Positions 51,551-60,596 of a stretch of 64,000 nt of DNA are shown here, piece after piece (position 1 is the stretch's first letter; each line of letters starts with the position of its first letter). A program made the position numbers and the translations under genes. Location of the stretch: assembly GCA_022181065.1 (NCBI GenBank), contig BQMY01000076.1, forward strand, positions 1-64,000, read 5' to 3'. Below the pieces are notes generated by a model that was given only the letters and a program-made list of their open reading frames with translations, was not told the DNA's origin and made no database searches. Source of the DNA: Melioribacteraceae bacterium (lineage in GTDB: Bacteria > Bacteroidota > Ignavibacteria > Ignavibacteriales > Melioribacteraceae).

Positions 51551-52927
51551 ATGTTTGATATAGATATAGATCTGATTAAAAAATATGATAAACCGGGACC
51601 GCGTTACACAAGTTACCCCACCGCGCCCCATTTTCATGAAGGTTTTACCCCTGAAGACTACAAAACGGAAATAATTAAAACCAATTCCGAACCGAATGAT
51701 CGCGACCTTTCGCTTTATTTCCACATTCCGTTTTGTGATACTTTGTGCTACTTTTGCGGCTGTAACATGATCGTAACCCGCAACAGGGATCGTATTTCCA
51801 ACTACGTGGCGGCACTCAAAAAAGAGATCGACTTGTTACGCGGACTTATACGTGATGACCGGAAATCTGTTCAGCTCCACTGGGGTGGTGGTACACCAAC
51901 GCATCTTAATCCGGATGAAATAACAGATCTTATTTCCTATATCAACAACAAATTTGAATTTAAACCTGACGCTGAAAAAGGATGCGAAATTGATCCTCGT
52001 GAACTTACACGCGCCCATCTCGAAGCCCTTCGTGAAGGTGGTTTTAATCGTATCAGTATGGGCGTGCAGGATTTTAACCCGAAAGTTCAGAAAGCCGTGA
52101 ACAGAATACAGCCCGAAGGAATGACCAAACAGGTCGTTGACTGGGTTCGTGAACTGCAATTCGATTCAATCAACCTGGACCTTATTTACGGATTGCCATT
52201 CCAGACCACCGAAGAATTCGCCAAAACTGTAGATAAACTCATAGAACTTTCTCCCGACCGCGTTGCTGTGTTTAATTACGCTCACGTACCGTGGATGAAA
52301 AAACATATGAACCTTATCAAAGCCGAAGACTTGCCAGCTCCCGAGGAAAAACTTGAAATTCTCAAAATGACAGTCGCAAAACTTACCGCTGCAGGATACG
52401 AATTTATCGGGATGGATCATTTCGCTAAACCGAACGATGAAATGTCTGTCGCGCTTCGTGAGAAGAAACTTTACCGTAACTTTCAGGGTTACAGCACGCA
52501 TGCTGGCACAGACTTATATGGTATGGGCATTACAAGTATCGGTCAGCTTGAAAGAATTTACGTTCAGAATATCAAAACAGAAAAAGAATACATGACAGCC
52601 CTTGAGGCGGGAAATCTTCCAACCACAATCGGCTACATGCTCAACGAAGATGACCTGCTCCGCCGTGAGGTTATTATGAAAGTCATGTGTGATTTCGAAC
52701 TGGATTATTCTTTCTTTGAGAAGAAATATAAAATCGACTTTAAGGATTATTTCTCATACAGTATCAACAAATTGAATGATTTTACTGAAGACGGACTCGT
52801 AATGTTCAACAATAGCGGGTTTAAAGTAAGTGAAATGGGAAGACTTCTGATAAGAAATATTGCAATGAGTTTTGACGGTTACATGGAGAGAAAACAGGAT
52901 ACTGCAAGATATTCACGCACGGTTTAG
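51551..52927 (+). CDS. hemN: Oxygen-independent coproporphyrinogen III dehydrogenase
   Basis: 458 residues from ATG 51551 (GGAG at 51542-51545). The radical-SAM CxxxCxxC is PFCDTLCYFCGC and the GGGTPTHL and ERxxFN-type stretches SMGVQDFNPKVQKAVNRIQ follow; KHMNLIKAEDLP fits HemN. It oxidatively decarboxylates coproporphyrinogen III to protoporphyrinogen IX without oxygen. Its stop overlaps that of tyrA on the other strand by four bases. Confidence 0.95.
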   Translation: MFDIDIDLIKKYDKPGPRYTSYPTAPHFHEGFTPEDYKTEIIKTNSEPNDRDLSLYFHIPFCDTLCYFCGCNMIVTRNRDRISNYVAALKKEIDLLRGLIRDDRKSVQLHWGGGTPTHLNPDEITDLISYINNKFEFKPDAEKGCEIDPRELTRAHLEALREGGFNRISMGVQDFNPKVQKAVNRIQPEGMTKQVVDWVRELQFDSINLDLIYGLPFQTTEEFAKTVDKLIELSPDRVAVFNYAHVPWMKKHMNLIKAEDLPAPEEKLEILKMTVAKLTAAGYEFIGMDHFAKPNDEMSVALREKKLYRNFQGYSTHAGTDLYGMGITSIGQLERIYVQNIKTEKEYMTALEAGNLPTTIGYMLNEDDLLRREVIMKVMCDFELDYSFFEKKYKIDFKDYFSYSINKLNDFTEDGLVMFNNSGFKVSEMGRLLIRNIAMSFDGYMERKQDTARYSRTV

Positions 52928-53670
52928 TTCAGGAATATCTTCGTTATTTTGTTAAAACTCTCTTCAAACTTCTCCCTTATCTCATGTGAATAAGGGTTAT
53001 ACCTGTAAAAATCTTTGAATAAAGTATCCGAATCGTTCATTGTAAAATGGGCGATTCGGTTCAAATCTGAAAGCCCTCTCATCTTCAGAGGAACATTAAA
53101 GATATCCATATCACCCAGCGCGCGCCCCAAATGATGAATTAAACTCAGGTTATAAGCCATAAGTCGGTCATGCTCATGCGCGTCCATACTCAACGGGAGT
53201 AACCCTAGTTTGTCCTCAAAAAGCTGCACCAGGAATCTGTATCTTAAGGCAGCTACCCGTCCCGGCATCATGGTGATTTGATGACCTTTGAGACCTTTGC
53301 GCGCCGAATCAGGACCGAACAAAGGATGGGTAAGCACATATTCCACTCCCTCAGGCAGTGAACTTTTGAACCAGTTCAGCACCGAAACTTTCACAGAGGC
53401 GCAATCCACAACCACCGCTCCCGGCTTGATTTTAGCCCCATGCTCCCTGATAAAAGATTCAATTTCACTTATAGGAATTGTGAGAAAAATAAAATCCACC
53501 TGCAAACATTGTTCAAGAGTACCGAAATTTTCAAAGTTTTTTTTATTTCCAATCTTATCGTAAAACAAAACTTCTTCATACTGATTGATAAGACTTCCGA
53601 AGAAAAACCCGAACCTTCCGGCGCCGATAAACGCTATTTTGAAATTACCTTTAATCTTTTTCTCCCACAA
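52924..53670 (-). CDS. tyrA: Prephenate dehydrogenase
   Basis: 248 residues. NAD fold IAFIGAGRFGFFFG, followed by LTIPISEIESF, DCASVKVSVL and the prephenate-site pattern LTHPLFGPDSARKG, then SLIHHLGRAL. It oxidises prephenate to 4-hydroxyphenylpyruvate for tyrosine. It is monofunctional, with no fused mutase or ACT domain. The start overlaps the chorismate mutase gene by 20 bases; it is the last gene of the attenuated operon. Confidence 0.93.
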   Translation of the reverse strand: MWEKKIKGNFKIAFIGAGRFGFFFGSLINQYEEVLFYDKIGNKKNFENFGTLEQCLQVDFIFLTIPISEIESFIREHGAKIKPGAVVVDCASVKVSVLNWFKSSLPEGVEYVLTHPLFGPDSARKGLKGHQITMMPGRVAALRYRFLVQLFEDKLGLLPLSMDAHEHDRLMAYNLSLIHHLGRALGDMDIFNVPLKMRGLSDLNRIAHFTMNDSDTLFKDFYRYNPYSHEIREKFEESFNKITKIFLN

Positions 53671-53944
53671 TATTGTGCTGCATATAGTGTGATTCTTTCA
53701 ATATACACTCCCACAGCAAATCAACAAAATCGTGTCGCAATCCATTTTCCGATGCTTTAGTTTTCAATTTTTCGAGCAGCGCGGTTTCACGAATGGTATC
53801 AACAACATCAATATCAAGATTTTTTTTGAGATTACCAATCTTCCCCGCAATTTCAAACCTGTTCGCCAGAAGTTCGATAATTTTCAAATCTATGTTATCA
53901 ATTCCTTCGCGGAGTATGTCCAGTTCATTTTCTTCAGATTTCAT
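53651..53944 (-). CDS. Chorismate mutase (AroQ class)
   Basis: 97 residues. LDILREGIDNIDLKIIELLANRF with the charged KIGNLKKNLDIDVVDTIRE and DFVDLLWECILKESHYMQ is the all-alpha AroQ fold; Arg, Lys and Glu residues of the active site are in place. It rearranges chorismate to prephenate. A separate short mutase is unusual next to separate tyrA and pheA, where fusions are common. Confidence 0.92.
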   Translation of the reverse strand: MKSEENELDILREGIDNIDLKIIELLANRFEIAGKIGNLKKNLDIDVVDTIRETALLEKLKTKASENGLRHDFVDLLWECILKESHYMQHNIVGEKD

Positions 53945-53967: not shown

Positions 53968-55221
53968 TTATTGCCGTTTCTCCCAATGTGTAAAGTCGTT
54001 CCAGAACTCCGGATAAGATTTCTGAACACACTCGGGTTTATCTATTGTTATTTCCGGAATTTTACAACCGGCAACCGCGAAACTCATCGCTATTCTGTGA
54101 TCGTCGAAAGTTTTAATTTCAGCCGACTTGTAATTTTTTGCCGGATGAATAACCAGTGATCCGTTTTGGTATTCGGTACTGCCACCAAGCGCGGATATAT
54201 TTTGCTGAATTGCTGCCACACGATTGCTCTCCTTGTATTCAAGATGTCGGATATTCGAGAGTGCACTTTTTTCAGGCGCGAACATTGCCAATACCGCAAG
54301 CGCAGGGACAAGATCGGGGACAGCGCCGCAGTCCAGATTAATTCCCTTACTTATTCTGCCGGTAATTTCAGTTCGATCATCATAAAGCATCACATTACCA
54401 CCCGCAAGCTCCGCTATTTCCAGAATTTTATGATCTCCCTGAAGCGATGGCAGTGTTAATCCGGGCAAAATTACTTTTGCGTCATTTATAAGTCCGTAAA
54501 TCACCCAGTATGATGCTGCCGAATAATCCTTTTCAATTTTAAGATTCCAGTCATTTTCCGGTGGTTCGTTGGCAACAAAGATAGTATCTTGCTCGAACTG
54601 AACCTCCAGCCCCAATTGCTTCATCAGCTTGTACGTCATCGTAATGTATGGTAGCGATGGAGTATTGTGAGGGAGTTCAATTGTGAGTGGTTTTTCCATC
54701 CATAATCCCGAGATCATCAGACTCGTAACTACCTGTGATGAAGGGAGACTTCCAAATGATATACTTCCACCCGCGACTTTGGAAGGATAAACGACAACAG
54801 GCAGACCGTCGTTGGTTCTTGATAAATCGATACCCAGCATCATCATAGAATCGAGCAATTCGTTGAATGGTCGTTCATGCAGTCTGTCAACTCCGTAATA
54901 TTTGACCGGCTTTTTACAAAACGCGGCAAGAGGGAGCAAAAATCTTGCGGATGAACCCGAGTTACCTAGAAAAATTTCCGATCCCGGATTAGCACCTAAT
55001 ATGGTATTATTCCGGATAACACCATCCTTCTCAACCCAGTGCGCACCGAGGTTTTTTAATGCTTCCAGAGTGATTGTTGTATCTTCGGAAACCAGCTTTT
55101 CACGGATAGTGGTACTTCCCCTGTTCAGCGAACCGAGTATCAAACTTCTGTGTGTTAAACTCTTGGATGAAGGAAGATTTACAGTAATTTCAGATTTATA
55201 TTCCGGTTTTATCAGATACAT
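53968..55221 (-). CDS. aroA: 3-phosphoshikimate 1-carboxyvinyltransferase (EPSP synthase)
   Basis: 417 residues. LPSSKSLTHRSLILGSL and the GNSGSSARFLLPLAAF loop, later TFDDHRIAMSFAVAG, mark the EPSP synthase two-domain fold. It joins phosphoshikimate and phosphoenolpyruvate on the shikimate path. The start overlaps the DAHP synthase gene by ten bases. Confidence 0.95.
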   Translation of the reverse strand: MYLIKPEYKSEITVNLPSSKSLTHRSLILGSLNRGSTTIREKLVSEDTTITLEALKNLGAHWVEKDGVIRNNTILGANPGSEIFLGNSGSSARFLLPLAAFCKKPVKYYGVDRLHERPFNELLDSMMMLGIDLSRTNDGLPVVVYPSKVAGGSISFGSLPSSQVVTSLMISGLWMEKPLTIELPHNTPSLPYITMTYKLMKQLGLEVQFEQDTIFVANEPPENDWNLKIEKDYSAASYWVIYGLINDAKVILPGLTLPSLQGDHKILEIAELAGGNVMLYDDRTEITGRISKGINLDCGAVPDLVPALAVLAMFAPEKSALSNIRHLEYKESNRVAAIQQNISALGGSTEYQNGSLVIHPAKNYKSAEIKTFDDHRIAMSFAVAGCKIPEITIDKPECVQKSYPEFWNDFTHWEKRQ

Positions 55222-56261
55222 TCAAGTTCAACCTTTTCGAGTTTTTGTTTCCTGAGTGTGAGGATTCCGTCACGCAAAATATTCAGGTCTTTCAATAGCG
55301 CGTCATACTGTTGAAAATTAAGGGATTGGTCGCCATCAGAATACGCTTCGTAGGGTCTCGGATGTATTTCTACAATAAATCCGTCAGCACCTGCTGCCAA
55401 TCCCGCCAAAGTTACAGGACTTACTAAATCGGTTTTTCCGGTTGCGTGACTTGGATCAACAAGAATTGGCAAATGTGATACATTTTTCAAAGCCGGAATA
55501 ACATTGAGATCGAATGTATTTCGTGTGTGCTGAACAAAGGTACGGATTCCACGCTCACATAGTATCACCTTCTCGTTACCTTCAGCGAGAATATATTCCG
55601 CGCTCATCAGAAACTCATTCATTGTTGCCGACATTCCTCGTTTTAGTAGTACGGGCTTATCGGTTTTACCGAGTGCTTTCAATAGTTTGAAATGCTGCAT
55701 ATTTCTCGCGCCAACCTGAAAGATATCCACATAATCATAAAGCGCTTCAATATCATTTATTTCCATTACTTCTGAAACTATCCCGAGGTTATACTCCTTA
55801 CCTGCGTCATACATCCATTTCGCTCCTTCAAGACCAATACCCTGGAATGAATATGGACTCGAACGTGGTTTAAAAACTCCGCCACGAAGGATATGTCCGC
55901 CTTTTTCAGATACTTCTTTAGCGATTTCCCAAATCTGCTCTTCTGTTTCTACGGAGCAGGGACCCGCCATATGCACCGGCTCAAGTCCCCCTATCTGCAC
56001 ACCTTTCACATCTATAATAGTATTACGCGGATGGAATTTTCTTGATGCCAGTTTGTACGGCTCCAGGATTTGAATTACATGTTCAACACCCGGGAACGCA
56101 TTTAACGCGGTTTTATCGATAACACGTTTGTTTCCGATAATACCAATGATCTTTTTTTCAATTCCCTCAGATTCATGCACTTGCGCGCCTTTTCCAACAA
56201 TATAATCTTTTACAGCCTGGACATTTTCACGGGTGGCTGAATCTTTTAGAACTACTATCAT
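55212..56261 (-). CDS. aroF: DAHP synthase (type I-beta, with N-terminal regulatory domain)
   Basis: 349 residues. The N-terminal 90 residues form a ferredoxin-like domain (MIVVLKDSATRENVQAVKDY), usual in type I-beta enzymes and the site of Tyr or Phe feedback. The barrel shows HMAGPCSVETEEQI, GGVFKPRSSPYSFQG, VLLKRGMSATMNEFL and LVDPSHATGK. It condenses erythrose-4-phosphate with phosphoenolpyruvate, the entry step of aromatic synthesis. It follows repeat copy D on this strand. Confidence 0.95.
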   Translation of the reverse strand: MIVVLKDSATRENVQAVKDYIVGKGAQVHESEGIEKKIIGIIGNKRVIDKTALNAFPGVEHVIQILEPYKLASRKFHPRNTIIDVKGVQIGGLEPVHMAGPCSVETEEQIWEIAKEVSEKGGHILRGGVFKPRSSPYSFQGIGLEGAKWMYDAGKEYNLGIVSEVMEINDIEALYDYVDIFQVGARNMQHFKLLKALGKTDKPVLLKRGMSATMNEFLMSAEYILAEGNEKVILCERGIRTFVQHTRNTFDLNVIPALKNVSHLPILVDPSHATGKTDLVSPVTLAGLAAGADGFIVEIHPRPYEAYSDGDQSLNFQQYDALLKDLNILRDGILTLRKQKLEKVELECI

Positions 56262-56509: not shown

Positions 56510-57664
56510 TTAACAAACCCTTGCAATCGCAGCCTTAATTATTTCAACCGGCTGACATAATGAAATCCTTACAAAACCTTCACCATTATTACCATATAAA
56601 GAACCGGGAGCGACAAATATTTTTTTATCTTCAAACAGGTCTTCAACAAAATTCTTGGAAGATTTCACATTATCCGGTAGCTTCGCCCAAATGTACATCC
56701 CCGATTGCTCCCTACTAAATGAACAACCCAGTATCTTGGCGAATTCCATTGCGGCAATCTGACGCTCGGAGTATATTCCGTTCAGATTTTCATACCAGCT
56801 TTCTTCAATACTCAACGCTTTGATAGCTGCCTGCTGGACTGGATTAAATATACCCGAATCAAGATTGCTTTTTACCTTCAACATTAAATTCAGCACTTCG
56901 CTGTTTCCTACTGCCGCCCCGACTCTCCAGCCCGCCATGCCATGCGATTTGCTAAGAGTGTTGAATTCAACAGCTGTTTCTTTCGCGCCTTCGACCGATA
57001 GCAAACTCAACGGCTCATTTTGATTTAATATAAATGTGTATGGATTATCGTTCACTACAAGTATATCATGCCTTTTGGCGAACGCGATTAACTGAGTAAA
57101 AAACTCTTTTGTCGCACCTGCTCCCGAAGGCATATTCGGATAATTGACCCACATCATTTTTACTTTGTCGTCGATTTTCTCACCCAGTTTGTCGAGATCT
57201 GGGAGCCATCCGTTTTTCTCCTCCAAATCGTAGAAAACCGGTTCTGCCTGCATCATTGTCGCGACAAATCTGTACATCGGGTAACCCGGGTCGGGTATCA
57301 GCACCTTGTCACCCTGGTTTAACAACGCGAATGACAGATGGAATATTCCTTCTTTCGAGCCTATAAGTGATAAAACTTCATCATCAGGATTTAGATTAAC
57401 ATTATATTTGTTTTTATACCACTTAGCAAAAGCTGAACGCAACTCCATCAATCCTCTGTGATGCTGATAACCGTGTACATCAGGTAACTCTGCGACGCGA
57501 TTTAATTCATCTATCACCGAATCATGAGGCTTCATATTGGGATTCCCTATAGCCAGATTAATTATATCAGCTCCCGCAGCATTCAGCCTGTTTATTTCGT
57601 TCATTTTCTTTGAGAAATAATACTCACTCGTTGTCGCTATCCTTACCGACGGACTAATTTTCAT
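56510..57664 (-). CDS. Class I/II aminotransferase, probably aromatic
   Basis: 384 residues. PLP fold marks: NLAIGNPNMKPHDSV, GYQHHRGLMELRSAFAKW, NYPNMPSGAGAT, and the lysine loop SKSHGMAGWRVGAAVG. A class I fold aminotransferase inside a Phe/Tyr operon most likely makes phenylalanine and tyrosine from their keto acids. Substrate preference is inference; aspartate or LL-diaminopimelate aminotransferases look alike. The start overlaps pheA by 11 bases. Confidence 0.9.
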   Translation of the reverse strand: MKISPSVRIATTSEYYFSKKMNEINRLNAAGADIINLAIGNPNMKPHDSVIDELNRVAELPDVHGYQHHRGLMELRSAFAKWYKNKYNVNLNPDDEVLSLIGSKEGIFHLSFALLNQGDKVLIPDPGYPMYRFVATMMQAEPVFYDLEEKNGWLPDLDKLGEKIDDKVKMMWVNYPNMPSGAGATKEFFTQLIAFAKRHDILVVNDNPYTFILNQNEPLSLLSVEGAKETAVEFNTLSKSHGMAGWRVGAAVGNSEVLNLMLKVKSNLDSGIFNPVQQAAIKALSIEESWYENLNGIYSERQIAAMEFAKILGCSFSREQSGMYIWAKLPDNVKSSKNFVEDLFEDKKIFVAPGSLYGNNGEGFVRISLCQPVEIIKAAIARVC

Positions 57665-58487
57665 ATGGGATTTTTCCTGCTTTGTACATACCTAAAAGTT
57701 TGAAATCCTGTGTTTTACTTTTTAATACATCAATCGCCCGTTGGCAAACCCCCTTATCCCGCCAGACAAAATCAATATGAAACGCGTATTCATTCGGGTA
57801 GCCCGGGATTGGTATTGATTGTATCAGCGACATATTGAGATTGTACTCCTGAAACAGATTCAATACACCGAACAACGCTCCCGGCTGATGCTGAACTTTA
57901 AAATTGATTGATGATTTATTTATTCCGTCGAGTTGATAATTATCTTTGGTGGAGAGGACCAGGAAGCGGGTGTAGTTTTGTTTAACATTTTCGATACTTT
58001 CAGCGAGAATTTCAAGTCCGTAAATTTCAGCCGCTCTTCTGCTTGCGATCGCCGCGGTTTTATTCAGGTTGCACTCTCTGATCTCCCTGGCGCTTTCGGC
58101 GGTATCGAAAGTTTCGATTCCCCGCATCTGAGGCTGTTCCTCGAGATACATGCTGCATTGATTAAGTGCCATGGGGTGAGATCTCACCGTACTGATATCC
58201 TCAATATTTTGCCCTGGAAGCGCCATAAGGTTTTGTTCAATTCTCAAGTAAACTTCACCGATAATATTGAAAGAGTACTCCTCAATCAAACCGTAGTTTG
58301 GCAATATTGAACCGGCAAGCGTATTTTCAACCGCCATAACCGCAAGATCAGCTTCTGCGTTTTTTAGTGAATTGCTCAATCCTCTGAAAGTGGGGCATTC
58401 GAGTAACTCATGGCTATTTTCGCCAAAGTAAGTCTGAACAGCTTCATCGTGAAAAGAGGCTTTTCCACCCTGAATCGCAATCTTCAA
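57654..58487 (-). CDS. pheA: Prephenate dehydratase
   Basis: 277 residues from TTG 58487 (GGAG at 58493-58496 five bases ahead). The dehydratase domain has KASFHDEAVQTYF, RSHPMALNQC, AAIASRRAAEIYGL and NYTRFLVLS (TRF catalytic motif). A C-terminal ACT domain (QHQPGALFGVLNLFQEYNLN) should bind phenylalanine, although the usual ESRP turn is QSIPI here. No chorismate mutase is fused. It is the first gene of the aromatic operon and lies directly behind an attenuator. Confidence 0.95.
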   Translation of the reverse strand: MKIAIQGGKASFHDEAVQTYFGENSHELLECPTFRGLSNSLKNAEADLAVMAVENTLAGSILPNYGLIEEYSFNIIGEVYLRIEQNLMALPGQNIEDISTVRSHPMALNQCSMYLEEQPQMRGIETFDTAESAREIRECNLNKTAAIASRRAAEIYGLEILAESIENVKQNYTRFLVLSTKDNYQLDGINKSSINFKVQHQPGALFGVLNLFQEYNLNMSLIQSIPIPGYPNEYAFHIDFVWRDKGVCQRAIDVLKSKTQDFKLLGMYKAGKIPYEN

Positions 58488-58499
58488 AATATCTCCGAT

Positions 58500-58529
58500 A
58501 AAAAAAAAGCCCCGAAAATTTTCGGGGCT
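58500..58529 (-). terminator. Attenuator terminator in the pheA leader
   Basis: AGCCCCGAAAATTTTCGGGGCT (58508-58529) is a perfect 22-base palindrome. On the minus strand it is followed by nine T (58508 to 58500). The structure lies 12 bases ahead of the pheA start codon and 24 bases after the stop of an aromatic-rich leader peptide, so transcription of the operon must pass it. Confidence 0.9.
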
Positions 58530-58553
58530 CGTTGGTCAAATTCTATTTTTATT

Positions 58554-58649
58554 CTAGCGCAAAACCATACAAGTCCCCTTCTTCGGGTAAATAAAATAAA
58601 AGTAACCGAAATAAAAGAATGGGCTGTATGTGCTAAAGTTTTTTGTCAT
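58554..58649 (-). CDS. Phe/Tyr-rich leader peptide of the aromatic operon
   Basis: On the minus strand ATG 58649 opens a 31-codon frame with stop at 58554. Eleven codons are Phe or Tyr (6 Phe, 5 Tyr), and nine of these fall within eleven residues, FFYFGYFYFIY (11-21). Such bias is the mark of an attenuation leader peptide whose translation measures charged tRNA-Phe and tRNA-Tyr. No clear Shine-Dalgarno sequence precedes it. A GGGG at 58575-58578 within the last codons could pair with CCCC of the terminator as antiterminator. Confidence 0.9.
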   Translation of the reverse strand: MTKNFSTYSPFFYFGYFYFIYPKKGTCMVLR

Positions 58650-58671
58650 TTTCAGATTTTCAATTGCGCAA

Positions 58672-58700
58672 AAATTAAAGCAATAACGACTAAATGTCAA
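58672..58700 (-). promoter_or_regulatory. Promoter of the attenuated aromatic operon
   Basis: On the minus strand TTGACA (58700-58695) and TAATTT (58677-58672) are separated by 17 bases, an excellent vegetative-type pair. The expected start of transcription lies about 15 bases ahead of the leader peptide ATG. Confidence 0.75.
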
Positions 58701-59045: not shown

Positions 59046-60596
59046 ATGAAAAAGTTGTATTCAGTACTAATTGTTTTTCTCTTCATCCAGTCAATTAATT
59101 TTGCGCAAATTGACAACATTCAACATCAACAATTTTCTGTAAATAACCTGCAGGCTTATATTTCCAATGTCGGCTTTTATTATAATCATGGAATCAACAT
59201 TCCGCCTCTCAAGATTAAAGGTTTTGATTCCCGATGGACATATTTAAATTATATGGAATATCCAAGATGGGGTGGGAAAATTGATGGTGAGATATTCTAC
59301 GATGGCAAGTGGAATTATTCTTCCTATCCCGGATACATCGATGAGAATGGAAATACCAGCGATCCCAATGCTCCGGAAGCCGGATTGTTCTATCTTCCAA
59401 AAGAGTTGAAGAATTATTATTCCTATTCTGAATACCTCGAACTGATGAAACACTATCCTGTAGAAGCTGGTGCCCCATGGGAAGATATTGATGGTGATGG
59501 AAAATTTAATCCCGAAATTGACGCGCCGCTTATTACCGGGGACGAAATGGTATGGTTTATCGGGAATGATTATAATTCCTTACTCCGTAAAATTGAAGCT
59601 GGAATCGATGTAGCTATAAAAGTTTTCGCCTATGACCAAAATCAAATGTTCAACAATATTATTTTTAAGGAATATACCTTAACCAACAAATCTGGTAAAT
59701 TTATTGAAGATTTTTATTTTGGCTATTATTGTGATTCCGATATTGGCAACGTATCGGATGATGCAGCAGGCTGTTTGTCAGACGCAAATTTGGGATTTGC
59801 ATACGACCTTGATGATAATGATGAACACTATGGAATTAACACCCCTGTTTTTGCGCTTCAATGTATAAATCCTCCTGCAAATAAATTGGGCTCCGATAGG
59901 ATGAGCTCCTTTATAATTCCGAATTATTATCATGGCTGGGATATCGAACCTTATCCTGAGCAGATGAATCGCACAGTGTATAATCAGCTACAAGGAAAAA
60001 TAATTTACCTTAATGATCCTTACACCGACCCTGAGACAGGCGAAGAAATTAAATATGTTTTTGAAGGAAACCCCTATCAAGGTACCGGTAGTAATTTTAA
60101 AGAAGACAATCGTGAGCTATACCGGGATATTGATATAATGATGAATCTCGGTCCATATGACATAAAACCAGGGGAATCGTTAACATTTACATTTGCGTTT
60201 ATGGGTATTCTTGAAGAGGATAATAAAAAGGGTATTCAACTTGCGTATAATTACGCTAAAATACTTGAGAATAAATATTACGATCTTATAAAACCAGAAG
60301 CTGTCCCTTACTTTGAGGAGCCTGCGCCTCCAACAGAGTTTAAAGTAACATCAAATTATCCTAATCCGTTTAACCCTGTTACCAATGTATCTTACTCAGT
60401 GCCTGTGGAATCACACGTTAACGCAATAGTGTATGACGCGCTTGGCCGAAGGGTAATTACACTGGCTGATGAAATACAATCACCCGGTGAATATCATCTT
60501 ACATTTGATGGTACTGATTTATCGAGCGGATTGTACTTCCTCCGTTTTGATATCGATGGTGATATCAAAACCCTCAAAATGACTCTTTTGAAATAG
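59046..60596 (+). CDS. Secreted protein with T9SS sorting tail
   Basis: 516 residues with a Sec signal (LYSVLIVFLFIQSINFAQ). The central 400 residues are not a domain I recognise; WRxY and DDxDGDGKFNPEIDAP segments (the latter calcium-loop-like, IDGDGKFNPEID) are present. The C-terminus SNYPNPFNPVTNVSYSV to SSGLYFLRFDIDG is a type IX sorting domain. The protein is therefore surface-attached or released. Confidence 0.9.
   Translation: MKKLYSVLIVFLFIQSINFAQIDNIQHQQFSVNNLQAYISNVGFYYNHGINIPPLKIKGFDSRWTYLNYMEYPRWGGKIDGEIFYDGKWNYSSYPGYIDENGNTSDPNAPEAGLFYLPKELKNYYSYSEYLELMKHYPVEAGAPWEDIDGDGKFNPEIDAPLITGDEMVWFIGNDYNSLLRKIEAGIDVAIKVFAYDQNQMFNNIIFKEYTLTNKSGKFIEDFYFGYYCDSDIGNVSDDAAGCLSDANLGFAYDLDDNDEHYGINTPVFALQCINPPANKLGSDRMSSFIIPNYYHGWDIEPYPEQMNRTVYNQLQGKIIYLNDPYTDPETGEEIKYVFEGNPYQGTGSNFKEDNRELYRDIDIMMNLGPYDIKPGESLTFTFAFMGILEEDNKKGIQLAYNYAKILENKYYDLIKPEAVPYFEEPAPPTEFKVTSNYPNPFNPVTNVSYSVPVESHVNAIVYDALGRRVITLADEIQSPGEYHLTFDGTDLSSGLYFLRFDIDGDIKTLKMTLLK

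Follow-up and report, generated by a model that had tools for sequence, protein, structure and literature searches.

A six-gene aromatic amino acid operon and its leader region

Within the window, by which we mean the whole 64-kb stretch of DNA analysed here, six genes named by means of Pfam and NCBIfam share the minus strand, some of them overlapping. They are pheA, encoding prephenate dehydratase with a TTG start (57654..58487; PF00800, 9.8e-58), a class I/II aminotransferase gene (56510..57664; PF00155, 1.7e-62), the genes for DAHP synthase (55212..56261; TIGR01361, over the cut-off) and EPSP synthase (aroA, 53968..55221; TIGR01356, over the cut-off), a chorismate mutase gene of the AroQ type (53651..53944; PF01817, 5.1e-19) and tyrA, encoding prephenate dehydrogenase (52924..53670; PF02153, 1.3e-13). 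The operon thus combines the shikimate entry step and a later step with the Phe and Tyr branches, and all six products belong to the Phe/Tyr pathway, as a first-pass annotation of this DNA had claimed. The upstream neighbour (59046-60596) is transcribed from the opposite, plus strand. It is a secreted-protein gene with a terminal sorting domain of the NPFNPVT...GLYFLRF type, a hallmark of type IX secretion among Bacteroidota-like bacteria.

The region upstream of pheA, on the same minus strand, begins with a candidate promoter, TTGACA-N17-TAATTT (58672..58700), identified by consensus match only. Its TTGACA (58700-58695) is followed by a 17-base spacer and by TAATTT (58677-58672), which agrees with the sigma-70 -10 consensus at three of six bases, and for this reason the pair is absent from the list produced by a promoter scan of the region. 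The sequence TAATTTTTG also resembles the -7 element of Bacteroidota, TAnnTTTG, except for an additional T. The leader peptide frame comprises 31 codons and a TAG stop (58554..58649; ATG at 58649, TAG at 58556-58554) and encodes MTKNFSTYSPFFYFGYFYFIYPKKGTCMVLR, a peptide of 31 amino acids with 6 Phe and 5 Tyr; a clear Shine–Dalgarno sequence was not found at its ATG. Residues 11-21, FFYFGYFYFIY (58587..58619), are regarded as the regulatory codons on account of their Phe/Tyr density and its behaviour in shuffles: nine of the eleven codons are for Phe or Tyr, more than in any other stretch of the window, whatever the frame (the runner-up has seven), and when the T-rich 300 bases before pheA were dinucleotide-shuffled 5000 times, 2 shuffles reached this count.

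After the TAG, 24 bases lead to a perfect 22-base palindrome, AGCCCCGAAAATTTTCGGGGCT (58529-58508), which is followed by eight further T, or nine counting its own last base. A terminator scan calls this element an intrinsic terminator hairpin with 10 pairs and a 4-base loop (58507..58530), and its T run extends to 58500. The TTG start of pheA (58487), preceded by CGGAGA, lies 20 bases past the palindrome and 12 past the T run. The first-pass annotation had listed these parts, from the TTGACA-N17-TAATTT pair through the frame with its eleven Phe/Tyr codons, the TAG and the 24 bases to the palindrome with nine T and the pheA start 12 bases on, and all were confirmed. A strong terminator as such would also be expected if a gene upstream had the hairpin as its ordinary terminator, or if the hairpin terminated constitutively but partially, with the Phe/Tyr frame arising by chance. 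We consider this highly improbable, since the neighbour at 59046-60596 lies on the opposite strand, leaving the hairpin no other gene to terminate, and since frame, spacing and complementarity are all conserved, as described below.

Predicted alternative folds of the leader RNA

Two segments of the leader are predicted to govern the fate of the hairpin. Segment 2, GGGGACUUGUAUGGUU (58563..58578, minus strand), lies within the last leader codons and is the predicted 5' arm of an antiterminator; segment 3, GACCAACGAGCCCC (58524..58537, minus strand), is predicted to pair either with segment 2 (antiterminator) or, by means of the GAGCCCC within it, with segment 4 (terminator). For a ribosome stall at any of residues 11-18, the RNA left free is predicted to fold into the antiterminator at -20.3 kcal/mol (z -5.0; 0/200 shuffles as good), in which GGGG-A-CUUGU-A-UGGUU forms 14 pairs with GACCAACGAGCCCC in a helix that requires two single-base bulges. 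In predicted stability this fold beats the terminator (-17.4 kcal/mol). A previous reading of the antiterminator pairing as only partial was mistaken, as the GGGG/CCCC match on which it drew is just part of the 14-pair helix. In the strictest test, which scores the longest perfect complement, the GGGG pairing of this leader did not exceed what shuffles give (p 0.56); taken alone this test lends the pairing no support, whereas the full fold does.

With the ribosome at the stop codon, only the terminator (-17.4 kcal/mol) is left in the prediction, and with no ribosome an upstream segment is predicted to hold segment 2 while the terminator forms. In the untranslated RNA, segments 1 and 2 would accordingly pair as a pause or protector hairpin, a prediction that refers to the window's leader only. 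For a stall at Tyr21 alone the predicted equilibrium fold is the terminator, so this last codon may not count. Folding the leader in both ribosome states, as had been proposed, thus yielded mutually exclusive antiterminator and terminator structures, and the three fold states are those of the enterobacterial trp, phe and his attenuators. A short, putatively translated frame rich in codons for the products, a terminator before the first gene and, in the predicted folds, an exclusive antiterminator and a protector hairpin agree with ribosome-mediated transcription attenuators of the trpL/pheL/hisL class.

Conservation of the leader before pheA

Searches for the PheA of the window covered 58 relatives together with 391 genomes from the class and 396 from the phylum, which the relatives and the gene content suggest to be Bacteroidota. 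Within the window's PheA clade, a Phe/Tyr-rich frame together with a terminator was found before 18 of 20 class loci. Among pheA genes of this clade in the phylum, 25 of 26 are preceded by such a frame, all 25 with a terminator (the exception is L163), and frame and terminator occur at 51 of 55 further phylum pheA loci, the leader not being found at four of these 55. At two of these four (L208 and L212), a different frame, seemingly the last part of aroA, reaches up to pheA, which means that pheA is not the first gene there. The control set, consisting of regions upstream of hisG, trpE and ilvB, gave 2/90 positives, both of them Trp leaders that also hold Phe/Tyr. Example leaders are MKQNYKQARYYFYFYFYFFSSPGGYCLF (L007), MKFTFTFTFFFFSFSFFSQRGALYM (L044), MTTSRAYFYGYYFYFTSKSRD (L158) and MASNRFYFSNNFYFFFSRSQDCAMVI (L176). 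An intrinsic terminator lies between leader stop and first gene in 45 of the 46 loci examined, three of these terminators having been redefined by hand, and in the 45 leaders measured in detail 22-39 bases, with a median of 28, separate the stop from the terminator. The sequence of the leader changes between relatives, while the Phe/Tyr frame, the stop and the hairpin recur. This pattern is what the first-pass annotation had called for in relatives.

Conservation of the frame as a frame would also be compatible with a functional small protein. This explanation has very little probability in our view: outside the Phe/Tyr run neither the sequence nor the length of the leader is kept, and the codons after the run act as segment 2.

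Codon content and complementarity are kept while the sequence turns over

The terminators of the relatives vary (CCCC, ACCCGG, AATCCC, AATCCT, AAAGCCTC and CCCGCGCT among others), and the codons right after the Phe/Tyr run vary in step with the terminator of the same locus, leader by leader. For example, AGGATTGT is matched with AATCCT in one group and GGGATTGT with AATCCC in another. The segment following the run forms a better duplex with its own terminator 5' arm than shuffles do (z below -1.64) in 42 of 45 leaders, with a mean z of -3.9 and a mean energy of -16.0 kcal/mol, compared with -11.2 kcal/mol for segments taken from other leaders. Over 96 leaders, 53 distinct complementary cores were counted, with a median of 7 bases against 4.1 in shuffles.

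Among 516 cells at Phe/Tyr sites of 61 similar leader pairs, 41 losses were counted, fewer than the silent changes (33) and Phe-Tyr swaps (42) taken together (75), and 214 of 904 cells at other sites were replaced (24%); as the 61 pairs are not independent, these counts are descriptive. When the twelve codons up to and including the last Phe/Tyr are considered, 44 of 45 leaders contain both Phe and Tyr, with means of 4.2 and 3.4, respectively; Trp is also present in 10 of the 45. These mixed codons fit an operon that makes both amino acids. The slight excess of Phe codons in the last twelve would suit a sensor of Phe only, like E. coli pheL, with the Tyr codons explained by the single step that separates TTY from TAY in AT-rich DNA. 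However, such a sensor is not expected to retain almost half of its run as Tyr across these distances, both residues persist in 44/45 leaders, and tyrA enables the operon to make Tyr as well. We therefore regard sensing of Phe alone as unlikely.

An Rfam search of the window returned no family at threshold. The Phe_leader model (RF01859) reached 34.2 bits (E 3.4e-4), below its gathering threshold of 55 bits, which suggests a leader that works like RF01859 but is not filed there. A hairpin with an alternative fold would fit equally well if a ligand-binding riboswitch, a T-box or an RNA-binding-protein attenuator controlled it and the short frame were secondary. The lack of a match to Rfam families argues against all three, as does the fact that the only conserved sequence seen was in the Phe/Tyr run and complementary segments; what is kept is codon content. 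Control of this kind is thus very improbable.

Proposed attenuation mechanism

Based on its parts, the exclusive predicted folds, the conservation and the complementarity in relatives, we conclude with high confidence that the leader is a ribosome-mediated transcription attenuator sensing charged tRNA-Phe and tRNA-Tyr, in agreement with the reading given in the first-pass annotation, which these folds, the conservation and the covariation support. We propose the following hypothetical sequence of events, for which we infer where transcription starts, that the leader is translated, that the ribosome stalls, that the transcript terminates and how the system responds to each amino acid: (i) RNA polymerase would start near 58665, with a ribosome trailing it through the leader frame; (ii) with Phe and Tyr ample, the ribosome would proceed to the TAG and cover segment 2 in the last leader codons, so that segment 3 would pair with segment 4 and transcription would end at about 58500; (iii) with Phe or Tyr scarce, the ribosome would stall at approximately residues 11-18, leaving segment 2 free to pair with segment 3; (iv) this antiterminator would block the terminator, allowing transcription of pheA and the genes for the aminotransferase, DAHP synthase, EPSP synthase (aroA), chorismate mutase and prephenate dehydrogenase (tyrA). 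According to this scenario, a shortage of either Phe or Tyr alone would suffice.

Descent of PheA and history of the leader

In a tree of 84 PheA proteins, the leader is present in 45 of 48 members of one clade and in 0 of 36 of the other; its presence tracks PheA descent. Most of the window's own family has a different PheA without the leader, so that the majority of close relatives lack it. The PheA of the window clusters (support 100/98) with that of one genome of its own family and with those of two metagenome-assembled genomes (MAGs) labelled Calditrichaceae and Deltaproteobacteria, the remaining sampled family members having the leaderless PheA. The simplest reading is that the operon came from outside together with its attenuator; given the long branches, this reading is tentative. 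The pheA-aminotransferase-aroA operons of the Deltaproteobacteria MAG (L034) and the Calditrichaceae MAG (L035) are nearest to that of the window. Their leaders keep the terminator and the GGGGCU complement and contain few Phe/Tyr codons. Since the two contigs are nearly alike, one of the taxon labels is probably wrong.

Before distant PheA relatives (31-38%), which belong to the different PheA clade and are fused or operon-internal, leaders were not found. At the pheA loci L017-L033, L036-L041 and L159, PheA lies within open frames of about 670-730 codons and seems to be fused to other pathway domains.

We lean slightly towards a history in which a single dual Phe/Tyr attenuator, opening the operon upon either shortage, was ancestral to the Bacteroidota-type pheA operon, was kept by codon content and complementarity alone, and moved with the operon when it crossed phyla (Calditrichota) and replaced the leaderless pheA in the window's family.

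Relation to known systems

Like the E. coli pheA attenuator (pheL, RF01859), the leader combines a peptide enriched for the amino acid under control with segments 1-4 and an intrinsic terminator before pheA. The codons of pheL are those of Phe alone, and pheA is the sole gene under its control, whereas here Phe and Tyr codons are mixed and the operon comprises six genes including tyrA and the DAHP synthase gene. The mechanism is therefore already known, and its presence in one family has been glimpsed earlier: passages of a 2021 study on Flavobacterium psychrophilum describe leader-peptide clues before amino acid operons, for which attenuation was suggested, and conserved 5' elements before pheA and hisG, the pheA element being structured, conserved in Flavobacteriaceae and without an Rfam match (PMC9723704). 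A conserved structured pheA 5' region, leader-peptide attenuation and the lack of an Rfam match are thus common to both, whereas Phe/Tyr specificity, an antiterminator and a spread past the family are not named in those passages (PMC9723704). The earlier claim that such a leader is undescribed in this group has to be softened to this extent, as the Flavobacteriaceae pheA 5' element and leader-peptide attenuation appear in these parts of the 2021 study (PMC9723704); for Ignavibacteria or other sister groups, no literature on such a leader was found.

Among other leaders, the Bacteroid-trp motif (RF01692, PMC2864571) is likewise a cis-regulatory leader of Bacteroidetes, of the trp operon by its name, and scored below threshold both in the window and in the trp leader of the same genome. 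The candidate short frame uORFC-13-1 before aroF in Acholeplasma similarly combines Phe codons, a terminator and a DAHP synthase gene, but belongs to another phylum, is described as holding at least one Phe codon only and precedes a different first gene (PMC8632094). New in the present analysis are the specificity for Phe/Tyr, an antiterminator that covaries with its terminator, the spread across the phylum and the association with PheA descent; the lineage-wide Phe/Tyr version has hardly been described. Our analysis carries ribosome-mediated attenuation of Phe/Tyr synthesis beyond the enterobacteria, to most of the Bacteroidota that were examined, predicts a two-amino-acid sensor that is testable in Flavobacterium or similar bacteria, and supplies about 95 examples of a family lacking in Rfam.

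Leaders upstream of hisG, trpE and ilvB

Leaders elsewhere were sought upstream of hisG, trpE and ilvB only. In the same genome, hisG is preceded by MTAKKLNTTHMHWHHIITFELAGG, a leader rich in His that has a TTGACA upstream of it and is accompanied by a 13-pair terminator (L080; G000:C121 65688-66155, minus strand), and trpE by a Trp leader, MINSKKHGFNSIWFWWWSNP, with a terminator and the same layout (L117; G000:C115 117117-117539, minus strand), for which an Rfam match at threshold was not found. In relatives, such leaders occur at nearly all of 30 hisG and nearly all of 30 trpE loci, most of the trpE leaders sharing the terminator core CCCTTCT..AGAAGGG. With His and Trp leaders in the same genome and in relatives, leader-peptide attenuation seems usual in the lineage; together with the Phe/Tyr leader, they suggest that aromatic and His synthesis in these bacteria is controlled largely by leader peptides. 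Upstream of the genome's own ilvB (L151), an Ile/Leu/Val-rich frame was not found. Long Ile/Leu/Val-rich short frames, e.g. SLDIILGISIIISVLAIIILG, lie upstream of ilvB at L122 and L125, where they are possibly branched-chain leaders belonging to an operon that begins with a gene other than ilvB.
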